From: Ceratodon purpureus
Lineage: Eukaryota > Streptophyta > Bryopsida > Pseudoditrichales > Ditrichaceae
Assembly: GCA_014871385.1 (NCBI GenBank)
Contig: CM026426.1
Coordinates: 84,221,424-84,285,423 of the forward strand
Length of the DNA stretch: 64,000 bases
Direction: 5' to 3'
The notes beneath the pieces are model-generated. The model ran no database searches, was not told the DNA's origin, and saw only the letters and a list, made by a program, of their open reading frames with translations. Shown here one piece after another: positions 16,365 to 45,049 of the stretch. Each line of letters begins with the position of its first letter. Positions within the stretch are counted from its first letter, which is position 1. A program made the translations under genes and the position numbers.

Positions 16365-16545
16365 TTATTGTTCCCTAATTTTCTTAGCTTTGGAATCTCT
16401 TACCACAAAATCACAATGGTAAGCGCAAAAATGAACAAAGTTTATAGATACAATATAATTTATCGGACACATGTAGGATCCACCTACATTCGAATCTGCG
16501 GGAACTTCATCACCAATCCACAGTACCAAATCTCCAGCACCAAGG
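16365..16545 (-). pseudogene. 3' side of a host reading frame interrupted by the large element
   Basis: Reading the minus strand away from the CAAGG flank, the frame GAGDLVLWIGDEVPADSN continues open to a TAA at 16365-16367, with a possible splice donor GTAGGT just after ..PADSN. Placed directly after the minus-strand frame on the other side of the element (..GQLGNSVDSL at 31351 upward), the reading frame is kept across the 5-bp duplication. This is what an insertion into an exon would leave. The protein is not recognised. The match in frame is suggestive, not proof. Confidence 0.4.
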
Positions 16546-16567
16546 GGGTGTAAGTATGCTAGACCCT
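16546..16567 (+). repeat. Left terminal inverted repeat
   Basis: G plus the 21-base GGTGTAAGTATGCTAGACCC(T). It is an exact inverted match to 31330-31350, preceded by CAAGG at 16541-16545. Subterminal AGTAC motifs follow immediately (16568-16620). Confidence 0.7.
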
Positions 16568-17691
16568 AGTACTTTTTGAGTCACAGTACAATATATGGCA
16601 AAGTACCTTAGCTTTGTACTTTGAAAAAGCATGAAGCCTCAATGTTTTTGCAGGTTTTGATCTCAGAAAGGAATAGGTAAGATGTCGAAGATCATATTAC
16701 CATTGTTGAAAGGGTTGTAAAACTTAATTGCTCATGTTAATTTTGTACTTATGACGGGTTCACTTCATATGTCCCAAGTACAAAAAAAAAGGAAAAGTAC
16801 AGAAATATTTATTTGAAATAGCATGGATTTTGTTCATTCTCTCGGAAGAGATAGGCAATGGAATGTTCTTTTCAAAACCGTTAGAACATTTGAAGCGAGA
16901 TTACACATTTGGGGTGGGTCTGCATAATTAGTACTGTATAGTTGGCGGGGGGAAAGTGTATGTAAAATTAAGATTTTTGTGGATCCGAACGCGGATTTTG
17001 GGTGCCCAATGCTTGTTCTAAGATGGCTAATCAAAGAATACATGAAAAACCAGTTTCCCCATCATTTCATTTCATACATGCGACAGCGTTCTATCTGTAC
17101 AAAAGGTACTCAGAGTATATAATGTACAGAACTCCGGTAGATCTTGACCGTTTGTGGTGAGCATCGCTCATCTCCACCATCAATTTCTTGCCCCTAGATC
17201 CTACATTTCAGGACGCCAAGCGCCGTCAACGGCTGCCTTGTGTTCTCCCTGCAACTTTCAGTACAGCTATTCCAGCGTGGAGACCTAGTCAGGTGTGCGT
17301 CTTTCTTCTGCTTTGCCTTTCTTCTGCATTTCAACCGCATGCACAGCAGTAGATGCGCACCAGTGCCTTCCCTCAACCACTCAACATACCCTTGTCTTAG
17401 CACCTTCATCTTCTACTAGGTTCTAGGTTCATACAATTGTAGGGGTTTTGTTTAGAGAGAATGAGAGAGCTGAAGGGGTGGAATTTGTATCAGACTATTA
17501 GAAGAAGAGGAGGCTCGAGTACGTCTTTTTCAGGTTTGGAAAAACCTACCACACATTTGGCATTAGCATTTGTATATTTAATCTCCACGTTTTGATTTCT
17601 AGATACTTATATTGTTGTTCAACTTGTTCAGGTGGGAAGTTGATGTAACAGAGGAGTTGAAGAACTTTGACAGGACTTGAGATTCGAGGAG

Positions 17692-17991
17692 ATGGACGAG
17701 CTGTTCGGCCCTGGTGATATACAGAAGGCCGTGCTGAGAACAACATCTGTTGAAGAGGACGAGGTGGAACTATGGTGGGACAAGCGGGAGTTGGAGGAGC
17801 ATTTTCAATTCCTTGCAGACGTGTTCGGATTCGAGAAGCCCTTCGAGAATCATGTTGCTATGGTGAACGCCAGCGTCTTAACCACTCTGCTCCTCATCCG
17901 CATCGGCTTGGATCATGAACGGGAGCTCGCGCAAGATGTAGACATCTGGAACCGCGTCTTTGCAATGTTTATGAATTTTTATATGAGTTAA
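17692..17991 (+). CDS. Small acidic protein, unrecognised
   Basis: From ATG 17692 a 99-codon frame begins MDELFGPGDIQKAVLRTTS and continues EEDEVELWWDKRELEEHFQF, then a hydrophobic stretch (VLTTLLLIRIGL) and ends FMNFYMS. Codon use and amino-acid balance look protein-like. An upstream frame from ATG 17461 (MRELKGWNLYQTIRRRGGSS) followed by a possible donor near 17535 could be an earlier exon, but I cannot settle the splice. It lies inside the 14.8-kb element, on the transposase strand, 1.5 kb upstream of the transposase. No family recognised. Confidence 0.4.
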   Translation: MDELFGPGDIQKAVLRTTSVEEDEVELWWDKRELEEHFQFLADVFGFEKPFENHVAMVNASVLTTLLLIRIGLDHERELAQDVDIWNRVFAMFMNFYMS

Positions 17992-18483
17992 GGGTTATGT
18001 TGATTTCCTGTTGTCGGCCGCAGTGATTACATGCAAGATGTATCATGTGTCTAAAATCTCCCCTTGTAAATGAGGTTCTAATTAGTTGTAGGAGACCTGG
18101 TTTGGTACCTGTCGCACCTGCACAGAAGTTGTCAGGGGTCTTTTTTCATTTTTAACAGGTGTAAACTCTGATCAAGTTGAAGGATCTCGCATTTCTCTAA
18201 GTCACTGCAACTACACTGCTTATTGTTCTGCAAATGCACATTGTTACAAAGATATATTCCTCTACATCTTATTGGACGTTTAGAAATTCACATCCTGTAA
18301 CAGTAATTTTAAGGCAGCCTTCATGTTTATCCACGTTAGCTGGCGTGAAATACACAAGATTCATTTATAAAGCGCCGAGCTTAAAAACTAATAAATATTC
18401 TCCACAGGATCAATATTTATCCGCAATATCAACGTCGACTGGTCAATTCAAAGGAAATGACAACCAATCCAAATATTTACACT
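17992..18483. other. Spacer inside the large element
   Basis: No gene is evident. It separates the small acidic frame from the GTAC cluster and the short plus-strand frames upstream of the transposase. Confidence 0.4.
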
Positions 18484-18529
18484 CGAGGCTCTTATCAAAC
18501 AACACGGTATGCAGTTAATTTAATTATGT

Positions 18530-18610
18530 GCAGTGTGTACACACCGTGAGTACATGCAGTATGTACATGCAATGAGTACACTAAGTTTCCACGTACAGTG
18601 AGTACATTCT
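18530..18610. repeat. GTAC-motif cluster
   Basis: Seven GTAC tetramers in about 80 bases, in degenerate copies of (C/G)(A/T)GTACA(T/C). It is the densest patch of the GTAC enrichment seen throughout the non-coding parts of the 14.8-kb element. Such motif arrays near transposase genes are often binding sites; here that is inference only. Confidence 0.55.
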
Positions 18611-18659
18611 CTGGTAACGGATAATCAAGATCCTATTTTCTAGAGGCGCCGAGTCTAAG

Positions 18660-18863
18660 ATGCCGCCGCCACTAGCAACCCTTTGGCCTCCACGTCGGCG
18701 CCGCCCTGGATTCTCTCTTCTTCTCTGCCTAGTCGTTGTGCTCTGCTGTATTCTGTGTCTACTCGGTGTCGCTTGGAATTCAACTACAGTTTGTGCATGG
18801 CTCTTGTTTTGTTTCCTTGCTAGAATATGCGATTTACAGAACTGTTCGTTAAACAATGTCTAA
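18660..18863 (+). CDS. Short frame with two hydrophobic segments
   Basis: ATG at 18660, 67 codons. It has a proline/arginine-rich start (PPRRRRPG) followed by SLLLCLVVVLCCILCLLG and a second apolar stretch, so one or two membrane segments are possible. It overlaps the next frame by 8 bases. It may be an upstream ORF in the transposase transcript rather than a gene. No family recognised. Confidence 0.2.
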   Translation: MPPPLATLWPPRRRRPGFSLLLCLVVVLCCILCLLGVAWNSTTVCAWLLFCFLARICDLQNCSLNNV

Positions 18864-19224
18864 GTCCACGCAGCAGTCCCTCTTTGTCCAGAGACTGATT
18901 ACTTCGTACTTCCCTGCAAAAGGCTTCCCTCTGGGATTGCTCTCCGCTAGTACCGAGATAGACTCCCTTCTCTACACAGTGGATAGCGAGACTAGCGACT
19001 CCTGTTACGTTTCTGAAACCCCTGTCTCTAAACAAGGGAACCTTGACTATTATCTAGGCAAATGCAACACCGTGTCTGAAGAGTCCCCGAGGCGTGCACT
19101 ATTTGCAACCGCAGTTAGTGTAGATTCCTATAGTAGCTACGAGTACCTGCCTTCTCTATCTGATGTACAATTTCCTATAGGTTCCCCCACTAGTAGCTGC
19201 GAGTCCATTGCATTTAGGCGGTGA
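18856..19224 (+). CDS. Ser/Tyr-rich protein or 5' exon, unrecognised
   Basis: From ATG 18856 (MSKSTQQSLFVQRLITSYFP) 122 codons run open, rich in Ser, Tyr and acidic residues (TVDSETSDSCYVSE, SVDSYSSYEYLPSLSDVQF). The frame stops at the edge of a tandem duplication that contains a short exon-like segment with AG and GTAAGT borders, so this is plausibly a first exon spliced towards the transposase gene starting at 19477. There is no recognisable domain. It could encode a regulatory partner of the transposase, which is inference from position only. Confidence 0.35.
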   Translation: MSKSTQQSLFVQRLITSYFPAKGFPLGLLSASTEIDSLLYTVDSETSDSCYVSETPVSKQGNLDYYLGKCNTVSEESPRRALFATAVSVDSYSSYEYLPSLSDVQFPIGSPTSSCESIAFRR

Positions 19225-19440
19225 CAGGCAACTACAGTTTGGTAAGTTCTTTTACATTTTCATGTGGATGCATTCAAATTGTTTCATTTTCATCGCCTCA
19301 TTGATTGTACTTCGCTCATTGCTATAATCTGCACTCTCTATGACAGGCGACTACAGTTTGGTAAGTTCTTTTACATTTTCATGTAGACACATTTAAATTG
19401 TACTACGCTCATTGCTATAATTTGCACCCTCTATGTACTC
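19223..19440 (+). repeat. Tandem duplication with a repeated micro-exon-like segment
   Basis: Two copies of a roughly 100-base segment share TGACAGGC(A/G)ACTACAGTTT followed by GGTAAGTTCTTTTACATTTTC (starts near 19223 and 19344) and a later GCTCATTGCTATAAT block. Each copy has an AG acceptor directly before and a GTAAGT donor directly after GC(A/G)ACTACAGTTTG. This looks like a duplicated 13-base micro-exon with its intron. Confidence 0.6.
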
Positions 19441-19476
19441 ATCATTTTTATGTGTTCATATTTCAGGGTGTCAGTT

Positions 19477-22400
19477 ATGGGGAATACTGCAAAGAGGCAA
19501 CGAGTGCGAGGGGGTGTTAGTCGACCTGGTCCTGGAGCCAGGGCTGCTGCAGACAGGTTGGAGGAAGAGCAGAGAGCCGTATCTAGAGAGACGGCAAGAG
19601 CACGTAAGGCTCTACAAAGAGCACGTGAGAGAGAGAGAGAGGAGGAAACACGAGGTCTTGCTTCAAACCCTTTACATGATGACACACCTGATCAGATGTC
19701 AGTGAGGGAGTTGAATCGGATCTCTTTGCGTATAGTGAAGTATATTGTTGGAGAGTTGAGGAGTTGTCCCGGTCCTTCTAGTAGAAGAGATGCTGTCGAG
19801 AGGGTCATGAGGCATAATGCTTTTTGGCCTCTATTACCGCTATATTATCCTAGGCCTCAAGAGGCAAAGGTCACATACAGTTTCATAGAGAATTTCAAAA
19901 ACGAGTTGCAGTTGGTGAAGGTGGCAAACTCGAACGAGCGATTAGCAAGAAAGAGTGTTTTATTAGATGCGGCAGTAAGCTTGGGAGTCGATGGAGTGTC
20001 AGCACTGTCACGTGTATTGGATACTTCTACGTCTAGCATCAATATAGCCATGAATAGAAGAGTGTATGGATTGAGTCCTGAAGAGATAGTGCCTCGGCTT
20101 CGCCTCAATCGACAGAAGAGAGGAGGCTTGTCAGATTACGACAAATCCCAGATTGAGATATGGTGGAATGGACAGACCAAGGTTTCGCCAAACAAAAAGG
20201 ACGTTGTTAAACACAGGGTAGGCAGAAATCTGTGGGTGGAGCCTCATCCTACGCACTACCTCTGCGAGACACAGGTAAGACCTTCCACTGAACATACATG
20301 TTGTACATTCATTTTGTTCCTTCTCTGCGTTTTCAATCATAGTGTACAAGGTCGTCAATATCATACCAATATATAGAGCACTATGTACTTGATTTCTTAC
20401 TAACGTAGGGCCGAATGTATTAATGTGGTCAACAAGTACTGCTAATATACAAAGTGGTATAACTTGGTTAAGCAGTTGTGTATATTAAATACTCTGCTTC
20501 TTGTTGTTGTTCTTTACATGTACTTATGTAGTTGACGATGTACGTAGGTGATATTTGTGATAAGTCCTCTGTACTGGCGATGTACAGCTAAGCTTAAATG
20601 TATGAACGCCAATATACTTTGTGTATATGTTGTACTCATCGAGTGTAGGAGTCGTCTATACTCGGTACATTTGGTTAGTGTGTTCGAAGTACCGTTGTAT
20701 TTCTTGTACTGGATGTAAACACAAACCCAAGGATAATGTACTTAATATAGTCCGTTGTATAACTTGTACTTGATTTCATAACATATTGTACCTAGGTTTA
20801 TTACTTTTAGTACAACAAGTATAACACTTTTGGAAAATGTCTCCATGGTTGACAGACAACATTCTTTTTGCGTTTTATGGAGGCTCATCCAGAGTGCAAC
20901 GTGCGCCAGAGAGCCTTCCAGAGGTTGAAACCATGGTGGGTTCGGAAATTGAAGGAACGAAACACATGCTGCTGTATATACCATGTAGAAATGGACTTCA
21001 TGAAGGTTGGATTGAGCCATCTCAGAGATCAGCTAAGGGGGTTGCATTCAAGGATCACGTGCAACTGTGGATGTCAAGTATGTAAGGGTGAGGCTGAAGG
21101 GGCTTGCCATGCACACGAGGCAATTTATAAGCGCATTACAATGATGTGGGATTCCTGTGTGTGCCCGAAAGGAGAACTGGATGTGTGGCACAAGCTTGAT
21201 TGTCTCATGGAAGAGTGTCCAACCAGTGGCTTTCATTTATTTCCCCTTTGCCCTCTGGAGTTGTCTAGTACTGACTCGTTTCTTGTGAAGTGGAAGTGTT
21301 TTGAATACTATGAGGTTGGCGTTGATAAGAGGACTGGAAGGCCCAAGAAGCGGCTCAGAGAGGCTTTCACGGATACTCCTGTGAAAGAGTTTTTGTCGTA
21401 CATGGAGAAAACAGTGTCCACGTTCATCACCCACAACTTCCGAGCGAGGTGGCAGGATGAGCAATGTCAATTAATGATGAAGAACGTCCCGGAGGGAGTA
21501 CTTGTGTCTCATATCGATTTTGCAGAAAATTATAGCTTTGCTATTCAGAATGAAGTGCAAAGTTTGTACTATTTCAGCACGTCCGTAACCATCCTTGTCC
21601 ATATTACAATGTGGAAAGAAGGGGATACCGTAATGAAGCAGACGCACTTTTACATATCGGATGACAAAGATCACGACTCTGCTTATGTCCAACATTGCTT
21701 GCTTTTGCATTGGGACTGGTTAGAGGACTCAGGATTTATTCCGGAGGAACACTGGGTGTATAGTGATGGCTGTAGCGCTCAGTTCAAATGTGCAACAGCT
21801 ATGTACTTCGTGGCTAGATATCCCATGCTCACTAAGGGATGCAAGATGCGGTGGAACTATTTTGAGACTGCTCATGGGAAGGGAGAGTGGGATGGGGCCG
21901 GGGCGGTCGTGAAGAGGGCGTTGAGTGCCGAGCAAATCCAGAATCCTTTGAGGCCATTGGCGAATGCTGCACAAGTTGTTGACTTTCTACAAGAAAAGTA
22001 TACTGAGCGGGTTCAGAGTTCCTACAGGCGGACAAAGATCAGCACGGCTCCACCCCTCTCTCGTGTATTTTGGCACATTGGAGAGAAGGAAGTCGTTCAT
22101 AGTGACAGGAGCATCCGCTGCAACACTCTGCCAGGATCTAAATCACTCTATTCCATCATGGGCTTCTATGAATCTGACCCTACTCTTCTCAGGACACGTG
22201 CTTTATCTTGTTTTTGTATATCATGCGTTGATGGCGATTGGGCTAATTGCTTGAACTCATGTCATGTGCAGGGCTGGAATGTTGCTAGGTTGGTTCCGGA
22301 GAGCGCTTCTTCAGTGGCGGCACAGATGGAGGAAATGGACGGTGAAGGTAATTGGGTGCATGATGGCGTGTCGTTGGTCTTAGGAGACCTGGTTGAGGTT

Positions 22401-22772
22401 GGCGATAATTTCATGATACCTGCAGAAGAGGAGAATGAAGACGGCGTGGATTTCTACATCTTGCAGTGCACCAGATCTAAGTTTGAGATACAGGAGCCCC
22501 TCGAATGTCCATGGGGGGGCATCTTTGCCGCCGGGGATGAAGTTATTAGGGCAAAATACTTCAAGAAGCACGGACGTGGGGATAAAACGTATTTATTTTG
22601 CAATGAAGCTGTGGAGGCGCATGTCGATGCACATCTAGTCAGAGCGTGCAAATTCCCCATGATACTGGCTTCCCATAGGGCCAAGGGCTCTCCAGTATAC
22701 AAGATGTCCAACGAGACCATGAGAGTATGTGAAGATGCTTTGCGCGATTGGTGGGCATTCCATGAGGAGTAG
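19477..22772 (+). CDS. DDE-type (RNase H-like) transposase, two exons, apparently intact
   Basis: Exon 1 is 19477-20274 (MGNTAKRQRVRGG..) and exon 2 is 20856-22772. Donor CAG/GTAAGA and acceptor GACAG join in phase 0 (..HYLCETQ-TTFFLRFMEAH..), giving about 904 residues. The first ~60 residues are basic and Arg/Glu-rich. A Cys-rich region near 330-400 includes CNCGCQVCK. The catalytic-like core contains SHIDFAENYSF (first Asp), WVYSDGCSAQFK (second Asp) and ETAHGKGEWDGAGAVVKRAL. A C-terminal Cys cluster (CFCISCVDGDWANCLNSC) may bind zinc. The SDG..AQFK..HGKG..DG..G..K pattern is one I associate with animal and algal transposases of an RNase H-like fold; I cannot name the superfamily. No interruptions were seen. 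It sits inside the 14.8-kb TIR element and is its likely mobiliser. Confidence 0.7.
20275..20855 (+). other. Transposase intron, GTAC-rich
   Basis: A 581-base intron with GT..AG borders and matching phase 0. It contains about 16 GTAC tetramers, where about 2 are expected by chance, mostly as TGTAC(T/A). This is the same motif as in the other non-coding parts of the element. Confidence 0.6.
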
Positions 22773-22835
22773 TTAACTAGAACTTTGAGTATCTTTGGAT
22801 ACTACAAGTACTCTTAATGTCAAGACCTTAGATGA

Positions 22836-23083
22836 CCATATTCGTTATTTTGAGACAATTTCAGAACTTTGAGACTTTTTGCCTACAATTTCAGCAATTG
22901 TTTTTAGACAATTTGAACTTTTTTTTGACTTTCTAATTATAGGTTATCCTCGACTCGAGGATAATCTTCCCATATATAGTCAAAAAGTTTTTGACAAATA
23001 TAGAATCAATCAAGAAATCAATGAAAAAGCTAGAGTCAAGCATTAAATTGAGACTTTGAAAAGTCTCGATATAACGAATATGG
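22836..23083. repeat. Imperfect palindrome between convergent genes
   Basis: Outer arms CCATATTCGTTAT (22836-22848) and ATAACGAATATGG (23071-23083) are perfect inverted repeats. The centre TTATCCTCGA-C-TCGAGGATAA (22944-22964) is a perfect palindrome about the same midpoint. Weaker pairing (GAGACTTT, TTTTTGACT/AGTCAAAAA) lies between. It sits between the stop of the plus-strand transposase (22772) and the stop of the minus-strand SET gene (23434), so it could act as a bidirectional 3' end or insulator, or be a small foldback element. Confidence 0.6.
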
Positions 23084-23433
23084 TGTTTTAGTGCTTTTTA
23101 GTACTCTGTGTATTTTAATGTAAATTGGAATGTATAATATGTACTAATTTTGGGTACTCTTTGTAGTATTTGAATGGCTCTTTGTGGTATTTCGAGTACT
23201 CTTCGTAACAGTTTGGATACTATTCGTATTTACTTTCTAATTTACTATGACCATTTATTCTTTAACTGGATCGATCCTTCATTGTAATTCAGAACTTAAG
23301 TTCTTTGTTGGACAAAAATGCCGCATTCAAAGGATCTTTGCAGTCAATTGCTGTAAGTACTTCAATGTAGCACTTAGTGTTTACAATTAATTAAACGCAA
23401 GATTCATGTCACTTAGTATTTAGAAAAGCTTTT

Positions 23434-24509
23434 TTATTGTGGTCTACGAGATACGACAAAGGTACTACGCCAGTCCCTACAGTAGCTACTCCCACACTTG
23501 CATGCAAAGGAAGGCAAATCAGGGTCTTCGTAGGTAAAGTCGCAGCCGTAGTCCCAAGTTAACTCTTCATGAATCAAAATGTCTCGATTTGTGAAGAATG
23601 CAACGTGGTAAATGCTCTTGTCCCATTCGTCAATCTGCACTGGAACTTCAATCAAGTTGGCATCTTCACACCTAAAAGAAACACACATTTTCATTAAACA
23701 TAAATAAACGACTTCGAACCATTACAGTAATGCATATCAGCCGGCTGGATTACAAACTTGTGGTTTACAAATCTTCCCACGTTACCAAAAATTTGGGAAT
23801 CCAAGCAGAGCGCAGAGTTGTCATCAAGTTTGGCTTCGGTGGCCCAATCAGCATCCAATTGCATTGCGAAAGATGGTCCAGGTGAGGCTACAAGATTTCT
23901 AAGAATCATCTCTGCATTTGTGAGAATCTCCCCAGCCAACTCGAAGAGAAACACACCTTTTGGAAGGGATCTACTTGCCCTCACCCCCCATCCAGTATGG
24001 CCCGTATGGAAAATCTCTACTGGATACTTCATCCCCTGTTGAACAACACGATTACCACATTCATTGTGGCAGCCACACCTGACACTACATTCTCTAATGA
24101 ATCTGCGTGATCCACGATTACCGCACAAGGCACTAAGCCTCCTCTCCACATAAATCACTAAGCCACCATGCGAATAGAGTTTTTTTTTCCTCTTACAACC
24201 AAGGGAATTGTTGCCACCGTGCTGAAGGTACCGGTCCTTGAGGATGCCACCCTCCTTGTAGGCTATCTCTCCACCTGACTCCTTTCCACATTCACAAGGC
24301 TGCAAAGATTTTAAACAATCCCGAGGCCCACATTTACAACATTTCCCAAGCTTCGGAGAGAAAAGGCTCAAATTCAGAGCGGCCTTCTCATGAACCCTGC
24401 TGTTGGACATGTACCGGAATGGCGACATATAAGCATAGGGATTACAGACTGGAATAGGTATAGCCTCCATCCCCCTCGACAAATCTCCAGGATCAAACCA
24501 GGGCATAGT
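23434..24509 (-). CDS. SUVR-type histone H3K9 methyltransferase (pre-SET, SET, post-SET)
   Basis: A 3' exon 23671-23434 and an exon ending at 23758 join across a GT..AG intron (GTTTGTAATC..TTTTAG) to give FVNHKCEDANL, the SET-domain NHxCxxN signature. In order: WFDPGDLSRGMEAIPIPVCN, typical of SUVR proteins just before pre-SET; pre-SET cysteines (CCKCGPRDCLKSLQPCECGK, then ECSVRCGCHNECGNRVVQ); SET with GWGVRASRSLPKG, GEILTN and ELTWDYGCDF; post-SET CKCGSSYCR. These are the cofactor-binding and catalytic elements of plant SUVR1/2/4-like enzymes, which methylate H3K9 in the nucleus. The 5' end is uncertain. An acceptor CAG before ACTATGCCCTGG at 24509 is phase-compatible with a donor in the next gene upstream. 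No interruption lies within the domain. It is inside the 14.8-kb TIR element. Confidence 0.8.
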
Positions 24510-24787
24510 CTGGTACGGGTCCCAGCCCCCCAAAAATAGCCCCAAAACAGTCAAGGGCCAAGAATTAAACATTGAGACGAATTCTGATTTTCCACCATAG
24601 CTGAAAACATGTTGTAGATACATACACCCACATGCACAAATGAACTCAAAGCCGCACCAAAAATACACAAATAAACAATAACAAAAAAGGGAGCAAATAC
24701 CCCCGGCTCCTTTTTCAGCAGCCTCGTTGCAAGGTTGGAGATACATCACAGTGGCTACATTCCGTAGCCACGTATAAAATCTACTTC

Positions 24788-27665
24788 TTAACGGCGCTTC
24801 TTCCTCTTCTTTACCTGTGCAGGCGCCAGTGCTTGCTTCTCTTGTGACCGTGTCATGACTCTACCTAGTCCAGCCGGAGACTTTACCGGGGCTTGGGGAC
24901 TCTCATTGTCATCCTTAGCGTCCTCACCACCCTCTACGATACCCTGCCTCGCTGCAAAATCTGTGAGCGCAGTAAGAGTTGTATGCTTCGCACTGTATAG
25001 GTTCTCCATCGAAGTCGGAAACTGTTCTTCATCCTTCTCTTGTTCCATCCTCTTTTTCCGCTTCTTCAATCCACTTGTATGGCCATCCTTCCCCGTTACC
25101 CTCTCATCATTCCCCACCTGTGCGTCTTCTTCACCCTGTAGCTCGCCTTCCTCCTGCGTAGGCGCCATCTCTCCTCCAACTCTATCAACCTCCAGGCCTA
25201 CCTCCTCCGTATTTGGCACCTCCTTGGACTTCTTCTTCTCGGCCCTCATCTTTTTCTTCGCAGGTGATTTCTCCGACTCCTTCAATGCAATCTTCTCCGG
25301 TGTTTTGAAGATCTCATCCTCCAGTGCTTCTAGAAACTGCTCTCCTGCTCCAACAGCTGTCTTCACATCATTCTTCCTTGTATTGCGCCCCACCAAGCAC
25401 TCGGAACCAGGAACTTCCACTGCTGCTGTCTTCTTCAACTGCTCTTCACTCACAACATTCGTCTTCAGAGGTTCATGCATCTTCATCGTTGGAGCTACAA
25501 TCTCTTCGATCGGAGCCACAGTATGTTCACCTCCAGCAATCTTCACCCTCAGCGGCTCTTGTGGGTCATACGACTTTAGAGTAGGCATCCTAGCAGCATC
25601 CTCTTCTTCCTCATCTTCATCTTCTGAATCTTCACGCTCCTTGGAATCCACAGACTTCTCACCGTCAGAGTCTTCTTCCTCCCCACTTGAGTCCGTCGTT
25701 CCAGAAGATGATGGCAACTTCAACTGCTTTAACCGCTCATCACCTTCGGACGACTCATCTTCACTATCGAGTTCAGGCTCATTACCCTTACGTCTCACTG
25801 CAGCAGTCTCCAAACATTCATAGACAACCTCATCCACCTTTTGTAGTTTTTTTACCTTGCTTTTAACTTTCGGAACCCCTCCTTTGCGGGTCACTTCCTT
25901 CACAGTGCGTTGCAAAGGGTTTAGCAACGCAGCAGGAGAGATTCCCGGGCCACCGACGAGAGAGCTGGTGGCTTGACTCGCTTCACCCTCAGTGAAATTA
26001 GGTGGTGAAATCCTTGAAGTAGGGTGAGCGATTTTCGGATACGACAAGCCTGAAATCCCACGAAATATATCATTGTTACTTATAATTCTGAACCACATCT
26101 TAAAAAACGGGTACTTCTATTACACGACAGTGTACAACTAGGGGGTGCAGACATTAGTACTGATAATACTAACAAGTCATACTGCATGCACCCATGAACA
26201 ATACCATACGTACATAAGCAAAAATAAATCTTACCTCATAGTATACAATGCGTACAAAAGCAGAGTGTTTGTAACCCGAGTATAAGATGCACGTGTAGTA
26301 CATGAAGAAAAGTACCTAAGCATTAGTCAACATATATAACAAGTAATCTAATGTATCATACCAATGTACTTCAAATACAGAAACCAGATATATCAAGTAA
26401 TCTAAAGTCCTCTTATATTCTTCCATACATTCAACACAGTTAATTCTAAGTACACTTAATGTACAAAAGGACTTCTAATATCACATTGTATACTACGACT
26501 TCTTCTAAGGTAGGGAGTCAATGTACACTCAAATACATACCCTTTAACCTAGTCAGTATATGATGAACTATAAGTGTACTATAAGTATATTGCATTGAAA
26601 TTGCAGTTTCCATTCAGCTCATGCATTAGTACTCTAAACACTGTGAATACGTAACAGTAGCAGTGGACAACACAAATCACGTTGACGAATGTACTTCTTA
26701 GTACTCTAGAGTGGCACGTACTTTAAATGCTGTGCCAACCACTGTTTACAAACTAATCACACTACAAAAATGTATAGTTAGCACACCCTTAAACTACCAA
26801 ACAAAGACCTAGCATACTTACCGTATATTCTGATTCACTCATAAGAGGCTGAACCATACTCCTAGGTACTAACGAATTAGCAAGAATATATAGATTCTAT
26901 GCTTGAAAACTTACCCGCATTCGGACAAGTTGCTCTTGCTTCCTCCATTCTCAGTTGCAAGGTTTTCCTTTGCTCCTCGGCACATCCAAGCATCTCGGCC
27001 CTCTGAAGCAGCTCGGCACTAGGCTCTCCCCACCCAAAACTCTTATGCCAATCCGGATGTGATAAATTTTGGCACCCCTTAGCAGTACATGTACCTCCAT
27101 GCACAAAAACAATCGATGCACAATAGGGATGATACAAGTGCCTACAAGATGATACAATAATGTCACTGTTAGGAAACGGAAATTGACACAGTGAACAAGT
27201 AGAAATCTCCAGAAGTCCACTTCGATCTGAAACCTGTGCACCCTTCTCCTCTGAGTAAGCCATGGGCCGTGGCCAAAATGACCCTAAAACCTTTCCCTTC
27301 TGCAACTCGAACAACTCCGCCTTCAGCGCTTTGTACTGTAAACGATGAGCCTCGATTCCATGTGCCATGTTGGCCACCTCTGCCTCTGCCAATTCTAGAT
27401 CTTCTCTTAAACCCAATAGCCGAGACTGTTCATCGCATAATTGCTCCATTATGAGCTCCATTTTAATTTTCTCCCGATCAACGTCACCTCCCTCACTGAC
27501 CATGGCATCAATCTTCAACCCCTTCTCCACCTTCTGGTGCTTGTAGCTCTCCAAGACACATTCAGACTGCTCCACCTTCATTTTACACCGATCTCTCTTT
27601 TGGAGAGCCTCCTTCTCCCGCACTCTGTCCGCCTCCATCTCCACAGTCAACACAGTGACGAGCTC
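24788..27665 (-). CDS. Coiled-coil/RING protein with acidic and lysine-rich tail
   Basis: One exon runs from about 27665 (or ATG 27638, MEADRVREKEALQK) to 26915, ending GCG-G before GTAAGT (phase 1). It is followed by an exon from 26049 (after TTTCAG) whose first bases GC complete a Gly codon, a clean phase match. The first ~130 residues are charged heptad-like coiled coil. Then comes a RING-like zinc finger: CSLCQFPFP, SSCRHLYHPYCAS, GTCTAKGCQNLSH. The last exon is acidic (SEDESSEGDER, EDSEDEDEEEEDAA) and lysine-rich, ending VKKRKKRR at a TAA (24788). RING proteins are usually E3 ubiquitin ligases; this one is probably nuclear, given its basic runs. A donor CAG/GTAAAG at 24815 could instead splice in phase to the SUVR exon at 24509. 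Confidence 0.55.
26050..26914 (-). other. Intron of the RING gene, GTAC-rich
   Basis: An intron of about 865 bases on the minus strand with GTAAGT donor and TTTCAG acceptor. It holds about 16 GTAC tetramers, most in the context (T/A)GTAC(T/A), where about 3 are expected. It is the counterpart of the transposase intron on the other strand. Confidence 0.55.
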
Positions 27666-27759
27666 CTATACCTCCCTGCCCCTCTCCTTCACCGAATCTG
27701 CGCATCAGGCCAGGAGCAACCAATGCAACAAATTCACGTATGTTAAAGAAATGGACAGG

Positions 27760-28736
27760 TCAACAACAACTCACATCAATTGACAAATCCATTTGAACAC
27801 AATTATTTGAGCAACTTAGAAGCAAGACAGAAACTACATATACAAACGTAGAGATGGAAAGATATAGTTTACCTTGAGTCCATGATCCTCCTCTGCGTGC
27901 ATACTCTGTACCACCTTCAACATCCACCCCTGATCCCATGCCAGACTCGAAAATACCGCCGCTTTCACCCAGCCTCGACTTCGTCCTCCCCTCTTCCCAA
28001 GTTCTGTCTCCTACATCTCCCCTCCTAACCCCTGAACTCCATCCTGGACTTTCCCCATGCACCCCTGGCTCTACCTTAATTTTTGCCCACTCTCTACCAC
28101 GAACCTCTAAGGCTTATCCCCCTCTAGCGTCTTCCTCAAAGCCAACAACTTCTGGACACTTTGTTCATATCGATTAACCTGCCTCTTATTAGTGTCAGCT
28201 CCAAAGGCACACCAATCTACTTTCCCTTTCCCTTCATCGAACTCGACTGCAACACCCTCGGCAAAATGAATCTTTAGGTAAGGAGGAATGTCACTGCTTG
28301 GATGTTGGTAGAGAATTGGGTGAAGGTACTGAATCCTCTTCACCACCCCCGCCTCCTTGCAACCTGCCCACCCATAACCTTGGCGTCCCCCATCGCCGTA
28401 TGGGTCTCCAAATAATTCCTTCAACAAAGCAGGAGACACCCGTCCCTTCCGAAATCGATGTGGGTTTTCGCCATCGCTCGCAAGAGTTGGGTACTCCCGC
28501 ATGAAATCCTCTCGTGTCAGTGCTCGCGGTGGCGGCCGTAACCTCGAAATCTCCAAGTCCACCTAGTCGATCCGCTCTATCATCGGCTTTGGAGTCTTCT
28601 TCGGCGCGGAACGCCTTCGATTCACGTCTACACCCTCAGAGATGTCGGTCTCCTCATCCAGCCCCGCTTGTGCACTCTATCGGGACTTTCTCCCGCTGTG
28701 TGTGCTCCCCGAACGCCGTCCAGCAGACCCCTCCAT
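27760..28736 (-). pseudogene. 5' exon region of the RING gene, interrupted
   Basis: A protein-like frame from ATG 28736 (MEGSAGRRSGSTHSGRKS) continues through LDEETDISEGVDVNRRRSAPK into REDFMREYPTLASDGENPHR, GDPYGDGGRQGYGWAG, YLKIHFAEGVAVEFDEGKGK and VDWCAFGADTNKRQVNRYEQ, ending about 28107. It is crossed by in-frame TAG codons near 28680 and 28565. A further frame 28062-27885 (VHGESPGWSSGVRRGD..RRGGSWTQ) ends at a good donor CAAG/GTAAAC. It lies directly upstream of the coiled-coil exon, so I infer it is the start of that gene. If TAG is not tolerated, translation would begin at a later ATG such as 28503 (MREYP). Family unknown. Confidence 0.35.
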
Positions 28737-29062
28737 CCTCCTTAATCACTTCTCGCAACCTGCCTTTGATCTCCACCTTCTCTGAAGCCACCGATATGTC
28801 GCACCTTCACACAGTCAATCCCGATCTCCTCCAACATGTATTGGAAAATACGCCTCTCCCTCAGAACCCCCCCTCATCGCTACGAAAACCCATTCGCCCC
28901 ACCCTAAACCCTAGAATGAAAAGAAGGAAACTCATACGCCTCGTCCTCAGGCCGTCACGCACAATCTCCTCACCACCAACACCATCACCTCCCGCCGCCT
29001 CAACGACTCTCTGTCAACTGGGGGTGACACCCTACACCCCCGAGGAATGAGGAAGAAGACGA

Positions 29063-29262
29063 CCACCGGTGATCACCTGTTGATGATGGTGAGGAAACGG
29101 TGATCACCGGTCATCCTCAAGGAGAAACTCCCCCAAACTTGCTACCACCGGTGACGGGGCCTTCCACCGGCGGTCACCAGTGGCTCACGATGCGCAACCT
29201 TCGGTCACCGGTTACTGAAGACTGCGATTCTGAACCTTATCCTCTGATCACCGGTTCAATGA
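29063..29262. repeat. ACCGGTGATCACC palindrome-rich cluster
   Basis: About eight degenerate copies of CACCGGTGATCACC-like palindromic motifs (for example ACCACCGGTGATCACC, CGGTGATCACCGG, GGTCACCGG) occur in 200 bases. They lie upstream of the minus-strand RING/SET genes, so they may be promoter elements or recognition sites inside the large element. Confidence 0.5.
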
Positions 29263-30956
29263 GACATTAACTAGTAATTCCATACAGCCCAAGATGTCAA
29301 ATTCTCCATCATGTTAAACCATTATACTATCTTGTACCCAAGAAGAACTATTATGTTTGTGTAAATGGTGTTTTAATTATCTATAAGAATGCTTGTCAAT
29401 TTTAAATTCCTTTTGAACCCATGTACCCTAAACCTCTATTTTAGTTCCAAGTCTCAATCGTAATAACATACACAATATTAGAGTATTAATAAATGTAAAA
29501 AAAGAATAAGGAATACACGAAATACATCCTCCCACTATACTTCATACTATTTTTGATTCACTATGAGCCTCTTAGATTACATTATATGATTTCATTTATA
29601 TGGGTATTAAATGTTTCTACAATCTAAAAATACGAATAAATCACTTATAGAATAATGATAATTCTAAATACATGCTTGCACTAAATGTATTATAATTTTT
29701 TATTAATTCCAAACTACTTAGAATACACCTTGTGATATTGTTTACGTGGGTATTTAAATAGAAAAATAATATAAAGGTATTAAAAAAAAATAAAGTAAAA
29801 AAGAAGAAGGAGATTAATTAAAAAAATAATGACAAAATAAAAATATAAGGAGATAGAGTGAAAGAAATATAAAAAAAATAAAAATTGAAAAAACAAATGG
29901 TGGGAGATTTAAAGGGAAAATTAAGGGCGGAAGAAAAGGGGGGAAAAAAAGGGGGGGGGGGGGGAATGGGGGGGGGAGTAGGTTTGAAAAAGAGGGAGGA
30001 GAGAAAGGGGGGGGGGAGATTAAATGGAAGAATAATAAAATACTAAAAACATAAAAAGATAGAGGGGAAGATGAATAGTAAAAAATACAAAAAAAGATAG
30101 AATGGGAGAGTATTGGGAAAAAATTATGGGAATATTGAATGGAAGAATAATGAAATATTAAAAATATAGGAAGGTAGAGGAGAAGAGAAATAGAAACAAA
30201 TTCAAGAAGGAGATAGGATGGGAGAGTAATGGAGAAAAAAAACATGGGGAGATTGAATGTAAGAGTAATGAAATAATAAAATATAAGAAGATAGAGGGGG
30301 ACAATAAAATGAATTCAATGAAATTCTACAAATTTTATTAAAACTTGGAACCATTTAAATATATGTATATAATATATACATGCATAATTTACGAGGAACG
30401 AAATACAAGTGTACATCATTGGAATCAATATATATTGTGACCCACATTATTTATAGCAAACCCTCATGAATGATTATTTTCCCTCTACAACAATCAACGG
30501 TTCACAATACATGGTGATTTTGAAAATATCACTTTGGAAACTGTCATTATAATATACATACATCGATGAACTATGCTAGATATTGATTTAATTACATTTT
30601 AGATCCAACTAGAATATACTATTATTTGAATTACATGCGTGTTCAAATAAATTAAAATGAGATAATAATATATATACCCTTCCTTACTCATTTTAATATC
30701 ATATTCAATGGAATTTGGGTCGAATAGAATAAACAATACTTCTATTGGGTTAACAAATATTCCATACATTCCAAAAAACGTAGGACATGAACTCTCATCC
30801 AGGCAACATCCACATTAATATTATGCATCTTGTCGAAACCATAGCATATTGCCTTATAAATATTTTAGATTGACAAAGTTGGATGAGACTTAGAGCATTT
30901 CAAATAAAAGTTCGGTGGGTTCCATTCGGGCTTTGGATGCCAACTAGGAAAATAAA
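29263..30956. other. AT-rich and purine-rich low-complexity sequence
   Basis: From 29810 to 30310 the plus strand is almost pure purine with degenerate tandem units like GGAAGAATAATGAAATATTAAAA and G runs up to 12 long (about 29951-29962). The long S/F/P-rich minus-strand frame here is composition, not a gene. The flanking parts are AT-rich without features. Confidence 0.55.
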
Positions 30957-31329
30957 TCACATAGGATTCATTGCTTCCATTCTTGGCCCTGGTTCAACAC
31001 GCGTCAAGGTATAAATGGCTGCCACGGTCGCAAGGTTAGGTGGCCTGACCATAAGAACGTGATACCATGCTGGTCCACCCTGTCTAGTGACCATGTACCA
31101 TGTCACACCATGGGATTCTCCAAAAGTACCGTGTCCTACTCCGGATATAGACACATTCCTTCGCTGCCACCGAGCCTAAGATACCCCTTTCCCGATTGGA
31201 GGATTCACGGATCCAATTTCCACTGTTGATCTCAACTCCGTGGTCAAAATTAAAACCCTGCGCTAATACTGAGTACATTTGAGTACTTTTGTGTAGTTTT
31301 AGTACTCCGCCATTTTGCCACAAGTATAT

Positions 31330-31350
31330 AGGGTCTAGCATACTTACACC
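31330..31350 (-). repeat. Right terminal inverted repeat
   Basis: Exact 21-base inverted copy of 16547-16567, followed by CAAGG at 31351-31355. Subterminal GTAC motifs lie just inside (for example GAGTACATTTGAGTAC near 31270). Confidence 0.7.
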
Positions 31351-31919
31351 CAAGGCTATCTACACTATTTCCTAACTGCCCATTACGGTATTGGCTACTT
31401 GGCTTCATCATAAGGAATTGCATATTCCATTGTGCGTCTCGGGTTGCCATTGCATCCTAGGAAATACGACATCACTTGCTTTCGACGCCCCTCTACTCTC
31501 TCTGCATCCAAGGTCGCGGTAGGCAGTCGACGTGCCTTGGGCCAGGTCAGATCTCTTACTATTGTATCATGTAAGGTAAGCATGAGCTGCGCGCGCAATG
31601 CGGTGTACAGCCGGTGCGAGACCTCGGTCCTTGCCAGCATAGGATCGTGAATCCTTGGGTTGTCGTTAATGGTTAGTTCTCGCGGACTCTATGGCAGTGT
31701 GTGATAGACCTCGTCTACGGTTTCGATGAAGGAGAGCTTCTCCGCCTCTTCCTCCTCGAGCACCATAGATCGCTTTAATGTCTGCCACACGTTGTTGCTT
31801 ACTCGATGGTACATGCAGTCTTCTTCCGTTAAATATCTGGCGCGGTTTTTCTTCGCATCATCACCCTATTGTCCACCACCTATCTTTCTGCGACAATCTA
31901 ACGGCAAATTTTGCGACAT
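31351..31919 (-). pseudogene. Host gene next to the right end of the large element
   Basis: A minus-strand frame from ATG 31919 (MSQNLPLDCRRKIGGGQ) continues through NRARYLTEEDCMYHRVSNNV, LEEEEAEKLSFIETVDEVYH, DPMLARTEVSHRLYTALRAQ and LTLHDTIVRDLTWPKARRL to ..PYDEAK, crossed by TAG near 31868 and 31689 and ending at TAG about 31395. A second frame from about 31456 (DAMATRDAQWNMQF, SQYRNGQLGNSVDSL) reaches the element border and stays open on the far side (16545-16365). The protein is not recognised. Introns or decay could explain the change of frame. The element sits 3' of, or within, this gene. Confidence 0.4.
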
Positions 31920-32999: not shown

Positions 33000-34284
33000 A
33001 AATTTTCTTACCTGCACCATGAGACCTCCTTGCTCTCCCTTGACGCTGTACACCGTCCTAGCCACCATCGCGCCTGTTGCCGCTCTTAGTACCCAGCTTC
33101 TCTGCGTCTTAGCACTCAGTCTCTCCTCCTCATGGCCAGCCGCCAGTCCCCTTGCCCTTGCAGCGCTTATGCCTTCTCTCCCCATATCCCCCACTCTCCC
33201 CTACCTCCGCTACTCGTATGTCCCGCTCCCCAGCCACTACTATCCCCGCCCCGCCCTTGCTAACCTCACCAACGCCAAAGACCCGCCCAAGTTGCCGACT
33301 CGCCTACACGAACGACTCCAGCCACTTGCATCGACACGGCACCCCCCGGCCTCAACAATACCCTCGGCTCACCTCCGCAGCTCCATCCCCAAACGCTCAC
33401 AGGAGCACCTCGGCGTCAACAGGTCCCAGGAGCCCTCAGGCGTCACCGAAGTCCGCCGCCCCACCGAGCAGCCGCTCGGTCTGTTGCAGCTCGATTTTCT
33501 CCCCCACACACTCCCCTTTCTTTACCCCCCCCACACTCTCTTACTCATTTCTCATACTCATACAACATCAACACTCATACATCCCTCACACCACAGTCCA
33601 TTGACTACGCAAACACACACTCACTTCTCTCTACACCAATATCCATCCCCACCCCCCATTCCCTCCCACCCCGACATCCCCCCCATCCACATACTTGTTT
33701 CACAACTTAATCAAACATCTTTACTTTATTCCACACTTCAAAATTACACATTACATTGCTCTCCATAGAGAGGTTGCCTTCATGGCTCCCGTTCTACCAC
33801 CCTACCTTCCTACGCATTCTCTATGCTCACCAACATATCCTCATGCTGCTTCTTCACAGCCAGGCTTCCCTTCCACCTTTCATCGGCATTCTTTCGCATT
33901 CCCATCTCCCACACCACCTGCCTTCTCACTCCCTGAGCACCATCCCCGCCTCTGTCAATCCTCCCCCACCTACTCCCTACCCCCCCCTTGCATCCTGTTT
34001 TCCTGACCTACATCTCCCCGTCCAACTCGCCTCGCATCACTTCCACCGCACCGCCCACGCACATCCCCCACCGTTCCCACCCCCTTCCCATCCGGTCCCC
34101 GTCGACACATCTCCCCTAACCACATCCCCCCCACTATCACTCCCCCAGGTATCCCCCCACACCCACTTCCCCTCCTTTTCTCTGTACTCTCCTCCCGCCC
34201 TCTACTCACTACACTCCCTTACTAACTCTACTCCTTTTTGTGTCTCTCCCTACAGTCCTTTCAATCACTACCGCCCTCGACCCC

Positions 34285-36436
34285 ATGGCCCGCGTCAAGA
34301 CCCTGGCCCCCAAGGTTCCTGTCTCAAAGGCTCCCTCCACGCCCACACTGACAAAGGCATGAAGGGAAGCTCTTCCAACTCAAAGAAAAAAACGTTAGCA
34401 CTCAAACTTATAGCTCTTGCAATTGAACCTCCCCCCGAAGTACCTTCGCCTCCTTATGAACCCATTGGCGTTCGGGACTATCCTGAAGGCTGCGGACCCG
34501 GCCCTCGACCTGACCAGCCCACTCCCGACACCAACACATCCCGCTCCCGTCGACGCTGCCGCCTATTGGAGGAAGAGCCAGACGATAGCGATAGCTCCCA
34601 AGCCGACCGCTCCTCTAACGCTTCCATTGCCTACACGACTCCCACCACCACCTCACACGAACTCATGGCAACGCTCTACCAAGGCCAACCTTCTGCGCCC
34701 CCGGTCTTCATCTTGGCTGCCGCCCTGCCTGCGCTGAACATGCTTACCGCCTCCTCCCCGACTACACCTCCTGCTACCCACGTACCCCCGACCCCCCTAC
34801 TCACCCTTCTTCCGATACTCCACCTCTCCAACCAGTCCACCCTCCAGCGGCCCCCGGGCCCCTCCCCGCCCTCACCACCGTCCATCCCCCTACCTTCTCT
34901 GATTACTCGCACCTCCTCTAGCTCTCCTTCTCGGTCCACGAGCAGCTAAACATACAACGCGGCCTCCCCGAAGCCATCTCCTATGGCGCTGTAGACCTGC
35001 CCACCTCTGGCATGCCGGACTCTGAAGTCCAGGAGTATCACACCTGCAGGCACCCTTTCCCCCATGTCAAACAGCAGCTTTACCCTCACATTAGGCTCGA
35101 TGGTCTTCTCGGCCAATTTCTTCATCTCACCCAAATCCCCTATGGCATAGACATAGATCCTACTTCAGGTCTCTCACATACACACCAAATCGTGATACGG
35201 TTTGATTCTGGTTATCAACAAATGAAGAAACAGGAAATGCAAATAGCTGCCCTAGCTCGCTTTGAGTCAATGGGCATCCGCTTAGCAAACCGGTTTAGAG
35301 AACCCATAGCTGCACTTATTCACCCTCAAACTAAGAACTAGCTAGGGTTTATGAAAGTCGACCTTCTTAACCCGAGCACTGATGGCGTGGCCCTGCTCAG
35401 AGGCCACCGCATCTTTACATTCCAGCTCCAAGACTCCTCCTACGTAGTCGGTAAAGTAGAGAAAGGCTTTGATTTCCCTTCCACAGCAGCAAACCCTAAA
35501 TTAGAAATCAAAAGCCTTATACTGGCGAGATACACCTCTCGACACCTTCTCGGTGAACTCACTCGCTTAGGGTACCTCGCAGGAGCAAATCTGGAATTTG
35601 TAGGTGTCACTAAGCGTACTAAAGAACTTGAGTTTGCAGAAATCACCCTAGCATCTGACAAACTAAAGAAGTACCTCTTAGAGACCCCCATCCTCTTTGA
35701 CAACCAACGCCTGGACATCGCCCTCCCCTCATCGGACCGTTCAGCGAACCTTAGCTCTCCCGAGGCGCTCACCACCTCCATCTTAGTCCGAGGTCTGCCG
35801 GTAGAATACTTGCAGGTGTAGGTCACTGCCGCCCTACACAAGATTCTCAGCCCAAAAAACACTCTGACTGTAACCTACAATCAAGCTGAAGGTGACCCAT
35901 TAGGGCGCCATGATGGAGACGCTACTATCCGATGCCTCAACTCCGCGGTATACACCCATTGGTGCACCCGCAAGGGAGTCCCCTGCTTGGGTAAGCTCAT
36001 AGATTTTGCTCCGCATGCCAAATGGCTGGCTCTGCCCCTATCGCTCAAGCCCGAACCCAGGATCAGAGACCAACCCGTGAGGTTATTGCAGACGCCATCA
36101 CGGCGTTAAAAAACGAAACCCCCCGCTCCTCCAACCCTTAACCAATTCGAGCACTCCCTACACGAGGTTGAAACCCGTCTCCGCACGCACATCACCACCC
36201 TCGGCACCTCCATCAATTCTCACACCACCGACAAAATTGATGCCACTGCCGCCCAAGCCGCCACCAAACGTCAACTTCACCACAATCTCCTCATCCAGCA
36301 GCTGCAGCTCTTGTCCTCCGTCTCTCGCGACTTTGGTCAGCAGATGAGCGGCATTTTTTCGGCCCTCAACCAGGGACCAGCCAAAGGTCCACTTCCACCC
36401 CTCCCACCTTCCCACTCCCACCCCCTCCATGATTAG
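34285..36436 (+). pseudogene. LINE ORF1 protein (nucleic-acid binding, coiled coil), interrupted
   Basis: A likely start is ATG 34285 (MARVKTLAPKVPVSK), whose frame ends after 25 codons, followed by a proline-rich stretch. The best-preserved part is 35012-35818 in one frame: SHTHQIVIRFDSGYQQMKKQ, FRLANRF-like arginine-rich text, then RYTSRHLLGELTRLGYLAGA and TSILVRGLPVEYLQV. It is crossed by TAG at 35339 and 35818 and continues VTAALHKILSPKNTLTV to about 36100. The VRGLPVEYL..AL segment is compatible with an RRM-like fold, common in LINE ORF1 proteins, which bind the element's RNA. A later frame (FEHSLHEVETRLRTHITTLG) could form a coiled coil. It ends ..HPLHD at TAG 36434-36436, overlapping the ORF2 ATG at 36429. 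Confidence 0.5.
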
Positions 36437-37866
36437 ACGCCCCTTGTATCATTACGGGCTCTTCTCTCTCCTTTTGCTGGCTGAAGTGCTCTATGCCCTA
36501 GCAGCCTCTGCGTACTTTGCATCCAATGTGTTGCTCCCCTCTATCAATAAAACACGCATTCTCTCCAGGCACCCCGCTTTGTCTGTTGAATGCTTACTCT
36601 TCGACTTGTCCTCTACTGCACAGCTACCACAAACCAGCCCTCGCTCCCTGGCCAATCCACCCTCCCTCTCTTGCGAACAGTCCCGCCCTCCCACCGCCTT
36701 CCACACCAACCCCTTGTTCTCCCTCCCCGCCAATCTGCCTCCACACCCCAGCCCCCCCCTAACACCCATCACTCAACTCTTCCCCACCACCCCCCCACAT
36801 CTCCCCGCCGCCCCTTGCCCAAAATGTTCCACTGACATCCAAACCCTGGCACCCCTCACCACACCCCCTGGCCCGCCCCACCTCCTCTCCCCCCACCCCT
36901 CCCGCATCTTCTTCCCCACACCCTCCCAACCTCCCTCTCCGTACGGCACCCCCAAAACCCCACCTCTGCTCCTCCGCCAATCCATTGCCTGCACCCCGCC
37001 AATTCCCTTGCACTGCCCCACTAACTTCCATCAAAACCCCCGACCTCACCAGCTATCCACCCCTCACCCCCCTGCCCCATCGCACTCCTCCCAACCTGCT
37101 CCCCTTGCCCCCAAACCGCCCCTCGCTCACGCTCTTCCCCCGCCGACCCACAACCTTTGTCTGCACCGACACAGAGGCGCCCCGATCTCCCCTCCCACCC
37201 ATGTCCCTCCACCGACCCCTATCCATACCCACCATATACCCCTCCCCCTCACCCCCACCCTTGCCCCTAATACCCGGCCCTGCCTCGCCACCTCACCCCC
37301 TCCCACCCCCGGCCCTGATACCCGGCCCTGGTTCTACACTCCCTCGGCCTTCTCACCGCCTCCCCACTCGGCTACCTCCGGCGAGCCCCCGCTCTACGCC
37401 TCTCTTTTCCCCCTCTCCCACCCACAGGGGCCCTGGTCAGCACTCCCCACAACACAACTCCTCCCTCCCCCTCCCACCCCCCCACCTCCCCCACCCCCCT
37501 CTCACTCCCCATTCTTTACTTGACCCTACCTCCCTCCTCCTCCCCATCCTCCACCCCACACTCTCCCTTTTACACAACCCCCTGCACACCCTCTCTCCCC
37601 CTCCACCGCACCCCTTATTTCTCCTCCATATAGCCCCCTCCTCTCAGGGCCAACTCCCCTCCCCACACATACACCTCCCACCCCTCCCACACCTCCCACT
37701 CTTACAGCCCCCTCCCTCCACACTCCATACCAGACTTCTTCTTTACAACTTCTTCCTTGTAAACTCCCTCCCCCTCCCTCGTTGGACTCGGCCTACCGGC
37801 CTCGCCCACATTCTTGTTCACCCATGGCTCCACTCCCCCCACTCCTCTCCCACCCCCTCATCACCT

Positions 37867-37894
<28 letters not shown>
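37867..37894. repeat. Homopolymer of 28 C
   Basis: An uninterrupted run of 28 cytosines inside the proline-coding part of LINE ORF2, where CCC encodes proline. Its true length is uncertain because such runs are hard to sequence. Confidence 0.85.
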
Positions 37895-37897
<3 letters not shown>

Positions 37898-38090
37898 ACC
37901 CAACCACCCCCTCCCTCCTACCCTAGTCTACCTCCTCTTGACACATTCCCTTGCCCCCCCGCCGATGCCCAATCTCTTCTGCTCTGTTCTCCTTTCCCTC
38001 CCACGCTTCTCCAAACTCCACCGCCGCAAACCTCACCTCATCTCCCTTCACATACACATCCTCCCCTCTCCCATCTCCCTTCTCCTCTCC

Positions 38091-44900: not shown

Positions 44901-45049
44901 CATGTGACAAATGTGGAAATTGAATGGCTCAATGAGCCAGAGGACCTAATTAACGTGGATAGTATGACCAGAAGCCAGGGGCAGAAGGCAGGATTACCTC
45001 CTATTGAAGACCAGTCCAAGGAACCAGAACCAAGGTAGGCCCAGACCAA

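Follow-up and report, generated by a model that had tools for sequence, protein, structure and literature searches.

SET methyltransferase genes are carried by HarbingerS and MuDR DNA transposons of oomycetes (Phytophthora), as reported by Kojima & Jurka 2014 according to PMC12730594. The same source describes TET/JBP dioxygenase genes in many fungal DNA transposons, and DNA methyltransferases are reported from charophyte and dinoflagellate retrotransposons (PMC5890265). Here we analyze a stretch of DNA from Ceratodon purpureus (GenBank contig CM026426.1, positions 84,221,424–84,285,423; 64 kb, 44.8% GC), further referred to as the window. It contains one copy of an apparent DNA transposon enclosing a putative transposase gene and what is probably one gene with RING and SUVR-type SET regions (further, the RING-SET gene). 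We consider it rather probable that the whole unit is one cut-and-paste DNA transposon whose accessory RING-SET protein acts on its chromatin and on that of related elements. The ends, the target-site duplication, the open frames, the domain homology, a single open RING-SET frame joined at GT-AG sites and a common GTAC signature are read directly in the DNA. All positions below are those of the window.

Ends and target site

The element occupies 14,806 bp (16546–31351). It opens with GGGTGTAAGTATGCTAGACCCTA and closes with its exact reverse complement, forming 23-nt perfect terminal inverted repeats. The left junction reads CACCAAGG followed by GGGTGT, and the right one, ACACCC followed by AAGGCT. 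Since AAGG stands directly outside both exact ends, the element was delimited at these positions, with a 4-bp target-site duplication at the outer edges of the one copy seen. The original prediction had proposed a 21-base exact inverted match, CAAGG on both flanks and a right end at 31350. Exactness and duplication stand, whereas the repeat is 23 nt long, the duplication is AAGG (the right-hand C is the last base of the repeat), and symmetric ends shift the right border to 31351. The terminal features are:

16542–16545, no strand: left target-site duplication AAGG, matching 31352–31355
16546–16568, plus strand: left 23-nt terminal inverted repeat (inverted-repeat and mismatch searches)
16569–17545, no strand: left subterminal region, GTAC-rich (shuffle counts)
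30901–31328, no strand: right subterminal region, modest GTAC enrichment (shuffle counts)
31329–31351, minus strand: right 23-nt terminal inverted repeat (inverted-repeat and mismatch searches)
31352–31355, no strand: right target-site duplication AAGG (sequence reading)

With up to three mismatches allowed, the 21-mer core of the repeat was found at only two sites in the window and in none of 100 shuffles; no further end-like match at 16 or more of the 23 positions was found. Nor did the window contain a second copy of the element, either by blastn (E ≤ 0.01) or by tblastn with both spliced proteins (E ≤ 1). The joined flanks, which would represent an empty site, have no other copy in the window; the left flank is partly a repeat itself. 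That only one copy is in view weighs against the reading we favor. A 13-nt exact part of the terminal repeat at 26809–26821, inside the RING-SET intron, was dropped as evidence because 8 of 400 random interior 23-mers match elsewhere at equal or greater length. This piece opens with the splice-donor-like GTAAGT, and the match may be due to chance.

The putative transposase gene

The plus-strand gene is composed of the following features:

19477–20274, plus strand: first transposase exon, beginning at the presumed ATG start codon (open frame)
20275–20855, plus strand: transposase intron, GTAC-rich (splice sites, GTAC counts)
20856–22772, plus strand: transposase exon 2, with the stop codon ending at 22772 (open frame)

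Joining 19477–20274 with 20856–22769 yields 904 codons plus a stop, with no interruption, in agreement with the spliced transposase originally predicted. The intron has the donor CAG/GTAAGA and the acceptor GACAG, and its donor is in the top 0.5% of the 7150 GT sites of the window. The 904-residue protein is called a transposase from its position between the ends, its length and the order of its motifs, not from a family match. The motifs HIDFAEN, YSDG and HGKGEWDG follow each other in an order that we take, by reading, to resemble a DDE catalytic core. A segment just upstream of the start is tandemly duplicated (19222–19435; two repeat pairs with spacings of 119 and 93 bp, 92% alike).

Several results weigh against this name and, with it, against the favored reading. 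The spliced protein matches no Pfam family at E ≤ 10, Harbinger-type transposases included, with the reservations that Pfam filters drop most weak matches and that HarbingerS could be compared by description only. NCBIfam gave nothing for exon 2 at E ≤ 1, and nothing above the cut-off for four single-exon frames. The single-sequence structural model of the transposase exon had a mean predicted local distance difference test (pLDDT) score of 32.4, which made it unusable. Finally, collections of viral contigs, plasmids and prokaryote genomes yielded no relative of the element's genes or ends; these collections are non-eukaryotic, and their misses say little. The transposase exon had no pattern matches in viral contigs or plasmids and four in prokaryote genomes, none confirmed as a relative; in viral contigs the terminal repeat had no matches, the RING exon had four pattern matches and one SET exon had seven, again with no confirmed relatives.

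The probable RING-SET gene

The minus-strand gene converges with the transposase gene. Its features and the gap between the two genes are:

22773–23433, no strand: gap between the convergent genes, GTAC-enriched (GTAC counts)
23434–23671, minus strand: last exon, SET end and post-SET, including the stop codon (spliced frame)
23758–24509, minus strand: exon with pre-SET and most of SET (Pfam, spliced frame)
24815–26049, minus strand: exon with a long acidic, lysine-rich linker (spliced frame)
26050–26914, minus strand: intron between the RING exon and the linker-SET exons (splice sites, GTAC rank)
26915–27665, minus strand: exon with coiled coil and RING; upstream border uncertain (spliced frame)
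28110–28562, minus strand: probable extra upstream coding exon, 151-amino-acid open frame (junction to 27665 weak)

The gap also contains a 22-nt imperfect inverted repeat (22835–22856/23063–23084). Spliced at GT-AG sites, the four exons give a 991-codon frame with no stop. RING and SET are probably parts of one gene, because a strong donor, a phase-matched acceptor and this long open frame join them. The donor of the RING exon, CGG/GTAAGT, scores 8/9, and only 0.5% of the 7150 GT sites in the window are as good; its reading phase fits the acceptor at 26050. The GC content is 30% in the 66 nt preceding this acceptor and 46% in the 67 nt following it.

Two separate genes would be the alternative. 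An in-frame ATG at 26098 could begin a SET protein, and the stop at about 26880, which closes the RING frame, could end a RING protein. We find this arrangement doubtful, given that the 8/9 donor lies just before that stop (such donors occur at 0.27 per kb per strand), that the acceptor is in the matching phase, and that 26098 is the sole ATG upstream in the linker open frame and falls 5' of the acceptor in an AT-rich, intron-like stretch; after the acceptor, the first ATG appears only at 25588. The splice sites of the introns 24510–24814 and 23672–23757 are weaker (donors 7/9 and 6/9, respectively), which counts against the favored reading. The latter intron, 86 nt long, splits the SET domain after NH and restores NH-KCEDANL once removed.

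The original prediction had placed RING and coiled coil in a gene of their own. The RING part holds to the extent that eight zinc ligands are readable in the sequence, although all Pfam RING scores are below the cut-off (at best, E = 0.00076 with the single exon and 0.002 with the spliced protein), a further point against the favored reading; the separation from SET does not hold if, as appears likely, the gene is single. The predicted product would run in the order coiled coil, RING, acidic linker, SET, and the exon at 28110–28562 may stand ahead of them.

The GTAC signature

GTAC was chosen from the two terminal 450-bp stretches of the element, where it exceeds all others of the 136 tetramers in enrichment relative to the flanks (13 seen, 2.5 expected). 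Its counts were compared between element segments and window flanks, and with dinucleotide shuffles. The RING-SET intron has GTAC at rank 1 of 136 (17 seen, 2.4 expected from the flank density), and the transposase intron, at rank 2 (16 seen in 20280–20850, 1.6 expected from the flank density). The rank is also 2 in 17000–19450, 40 in the RING exon, 102 in transposase exons and 104 in SET exons.

Shuffling gave the same picture. The left end (16546–17545) has 13 GTAC with a shuffle mean of 2.4, a count reached in none of 300 shuffles, and the counts of both introns were likewise reached in none of 300. In the gap between the genes (22770–23430) six GTAC were seen with a mean of 1.8 (reached in 1 of 300), and at the right end (30901–31351), five with a mean of 2.0 (13 of 300); the counts of 18501–19450 and 26901–28562 were reached in 1 and 9 of 300 shuffles, respectively. 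Relative to the shuffled expectation, GTAC is 5.5-fold enriched in the left end, 2.6–2.8-fold in both introns and 1.2–1.3-fold in the whole flanks. Among 138 overlapping 700-bp windows of the flanks the maximum is 7 GTAC, whereas windows taken from the left end and the two introns have 10–14.

The contrast between the element and its flanks is thus a matter of degree, and parts of the profile speak against the favored reading. The segments were defined after the GTAC profile had been seen. The signature is missing from the interval 28700–30900 (rank 81 of 136), and in the gap between the genes GTAC reaches only rank 10. The flanks are not neutral: the right one has 94 GTAC with 71.7 in shuffled sequence (reached in 0 of 60 shuffles), including 18 with 9.7 expected at 58236–62700 (2 of 300), and the left one has 41 with 35.2 expected (47 of 300). 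On the favorable side, no GTAC occurs in the gap 56199–56574, inside the neighboring DUF7869 locus described below.

We argue that the RING-SET gene belongs to the element because its large intron has the GTAC signature of the left end and of the transposase intron. The simplest reading would be that this intron has long been in the sequence environment of the element. It bears on whether the gene is a recent passenger, that is, a host gene picked up by one copy and serving the transposon in no way. Transposons commonly carry host gene fragments, a single copy is visible here, and the RING-SET gene retains introns, as expected of capture at the DNA level. We nevertheless think such a passenger unlikely: the gene is long, open and probably fused with RING, and the signature in its intron suggests long co-residence.

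The same signature counts against the view that the ends have nothing to do with the SET gene and are chance repeats, or that a host SUVR locus became flanked by two separate insertions. In its favor one can cite the segment at 28.7–30.9 kb that lacks the signature and the mild GTAC enrichment of the right flank. We judge it very improbable in view of the 23 exact bases, the absence of the 21-mer from the shuffles, the duplication matching exactly at the outer edges, the lack of any other end-like match, and the signature common to ends and interior. The original claim that the ends, the target duplication, the open transposase and the SET region form one unit is supported by the exact ends, the AAGG duplication and the common signature.

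The SET domain

In the spliced protein, Pfam detects SET over the whole model (1.2e-16) and Pre-SET (7.7e-11), and the post-SET pattern CxCxxxxC is present by reading. The gene thus has all three regions, as originally predicted, in the layout of the SU(VAR)3-9 class. The best solved relative of the SET region is EHMT2 (5.4e-32); Clr4 and SUVH6 were also matched, and the sequence match to SETMAR has 7.3e-25. A SUVR4 fragment is 40% identical over 318 aligned positions, which we treat as a lead. The element's SET and this SUVR4 fragment presumably share a SUVR-type SET insertion and an NHxCEDAN motif, both lacking in EHMT2. Pfam showed no SRA domain in the spliced protein and no WIYLD domain in it or in the upstream exon, the N terminus being possibly incomplete. 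The region is likely SUVR1/2/4-like and derived from a plant-type silencing factor.

In a MAFFT alignment, the equivalents of DIM-5 W161, R238, F239, N241, H242, C244, N247, D282 and Y283 are kept. Y178 is replaced by L, and D209 is kept in the HMMER alignment to EHMT2 and is K in MAFFT, in a gapped stretch. Three further changes count against an active enzyme: H stands in place of R155, W in place of F281, and, in that same stretch, F (HMMER) or W (MAFFT, with the gap placed differently) in place of Y204. The equivalents of R155 and F281 presumably differ also in SUVR4, an active enzyme.

The inactivity of SUVR2 has been attributed to changes at R155, Y204, N247 and F281 (PMC4260354). Three of these four positions are altered in the element and N247 is kept; since the key catalytic residues are otherwise retained, the catalytic activity of its SET is uncertain. 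A serious, though less probable, alternative is that the domain is a weak or dead SUVR2-like decoy or dominant negative that binds SUVR partners or ubiquitin and shields the transposon from silencing. Besides the altered positions, this would fit the report that SUVR2 functions in silencing without catalysis (PMC4260354) and the element-borne anti-silencing factors described in PMC12730594, namely the Vandal regulators of MuDR elements and TET/JBP. The retained equivalents of N241, H242, C244 and Y283, the post-SET cysteines and the apparent changes at R155 and F281 in the active SUVR4 argue against it.

Proposed mechanism

Under the reading we favor, a chromatin-acting accessory protein in a cut-and-paste transposon, the 14.8-kb element would contain two transcription units that converge. 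The one on the plus strand would encode a DDE-type transposase acting on the 23-nt ends, and the one on the minus strand, an accessory protein consisting of a coiled coil, RING, an acidic linker and SUVR1/2/4-like pre-SET, SET and post-SET regions. The RING, a domain found in many ubiquitin ligases, would put ubiquitin onto histones or recruit it there, and the SET domain, docked at ubiquitin, would write or read methylation of lysine 9 of histone H3 (H3K9). As a result, the element might set its own chromatin state, in self-restraint or stealth, or hold off silencing by the host. The ability of the element to transpose, catalysis of the DDE type, splicing, enzyme activity, the targets and the direction of the effect are what we infer here from the sequence.

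A link between the two marks is described for related enzymes. Ubiquitinated lysine 14 of histone H3 is reported to stimulate the Clr4 SET domain more than 250-fold (PMC8443253). SUVR4 is reported to bind ubiquitin, with an effect on how it converts H3K9me1 (PMC7218100, PMC4260354); PMC4260354 gives the effect as a shift to H3K9me3, and PMC7218100 is inconsistent on the product dependence. A RING and a SUVR-type SET in one chain would combine both steps, ubiquitin and H3K9 methylation. A stronger proposal is that of a transposon-encoded fusion of a ubiquitin ligase and an H3K9 methyltransferase that writes both marks and places or hijacks heterochromatin at the element or at its rivals; we offer it tentatively, as one that may well prove wrong. 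The original idea of a captured silencing enzyme stands as far as the presence of the gene inside the element, and its action is proposed from sequence. A plant-type H3K9 methyltransferase gene joined to RING in a DNA transposon would allow one to ask directly whether an element benefits from imposing heterochromatin, be it upon itself or upon others, and the RING-SET protein would offer, in one chain, a natural model for the connection between ubiquitin and H3K9 methylation that has been reported for Clr4 and SUVR4.

Other features of the element and the window

One more candidate coding region lies in the left part of the element:

17671–17988, plus strand: possible small coding exon or gene, 106-amino-acid open frame (strong codon-position GC pattern)

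In the part lacking the GTAC signature, a cluster of ACCGGTGATCACC-like palindromic motifs at 29000–29300 includes the inverted repeat 29058–29077/29099–29118. Further on, at 29807–30326, there is a purine-rich tandem array with a unit of about 115 bp (2.5 copies, or four 81-nt copies by another search).

Outside the element, a long interspersed nuclear element (LINE)-like sequence with reverse transcriptase (5e-23) lies within 33000–50500. A long terminal repeat retrotransposon at about 40.7–48.3 kb (gag 2.2e-10; end repeats 96–100% alike) apparently splits it. The frame 37524–39395 has, by reading, NPGP motifs that we take to be 2A-like. Minus-strand open frames at 54837–57750, one of them with DUF7869 (6.1e-35), are possibly a second transposon-like gene, and tandem 88-bp repeats with GGGATCTCCCGATG adjoin this locus. 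Along with the spliced genes, the matches to reverse transcriptase, the retrotransposon and DUF7869 show the window to be eukaryotic, and the SUVR type of the SET domain suggests a streptophyte host.

Comparison with known systems

As described in PMC12730594, the oomycete HarbingerS and MuDR elements resemble the element studied here in being DNA transposons with a SET histone methyltransferase gene. Compared by description, ours differs in the host group, the 4-bp duplication, the SUVR type of SET, the probable RING fusion and a transposase with no Pfam match. The original statement that no element of this kind had been described was therefore too strong. Fungal transposons with TET/JBP genes also have a captured epigenetic enzyme, which, per the same source, acts on DNA methylation and not on a histone mark. 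The charophyte and dinoflagellate elements (PMC5890265) likewise carry a writer of a silencing mark, and one of their host lineages is streptophyte; they differ in being retrotransposons and in the mark, DNA methylation.

In SETMAR, too, a SET methyltransferase is joined to a DNA transposon; by the account in PMC6326780 it was the transposon that inserted downstream of a SET gene of the host, whereas here the mobile element contains the SET gene. Sola2 elements are reported to have 4-bp, AT-rich target duplications (PMC3627910); the element resembles the Sola superfamily in the length of the duplication, which here is AAGG. Arabidopsis SUVR4 and SUVR2 have pre-SET, SET and post-SET regions of the same type; unlike them, the element's protein shows no WIYLD match over the exons analyzed and has RING and a coiled coil upstream instead.

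Among the matches listed in a search of open-licence papers, none described a plant-type SUVR in a DNA transposon or a RING-SET transposon protein. SET-bearing DNA transposons are already known; what is new here is a likely streptophyte host, a transposase that matches no family, the SUVR type of the SET domain and its probable fusion with RING.

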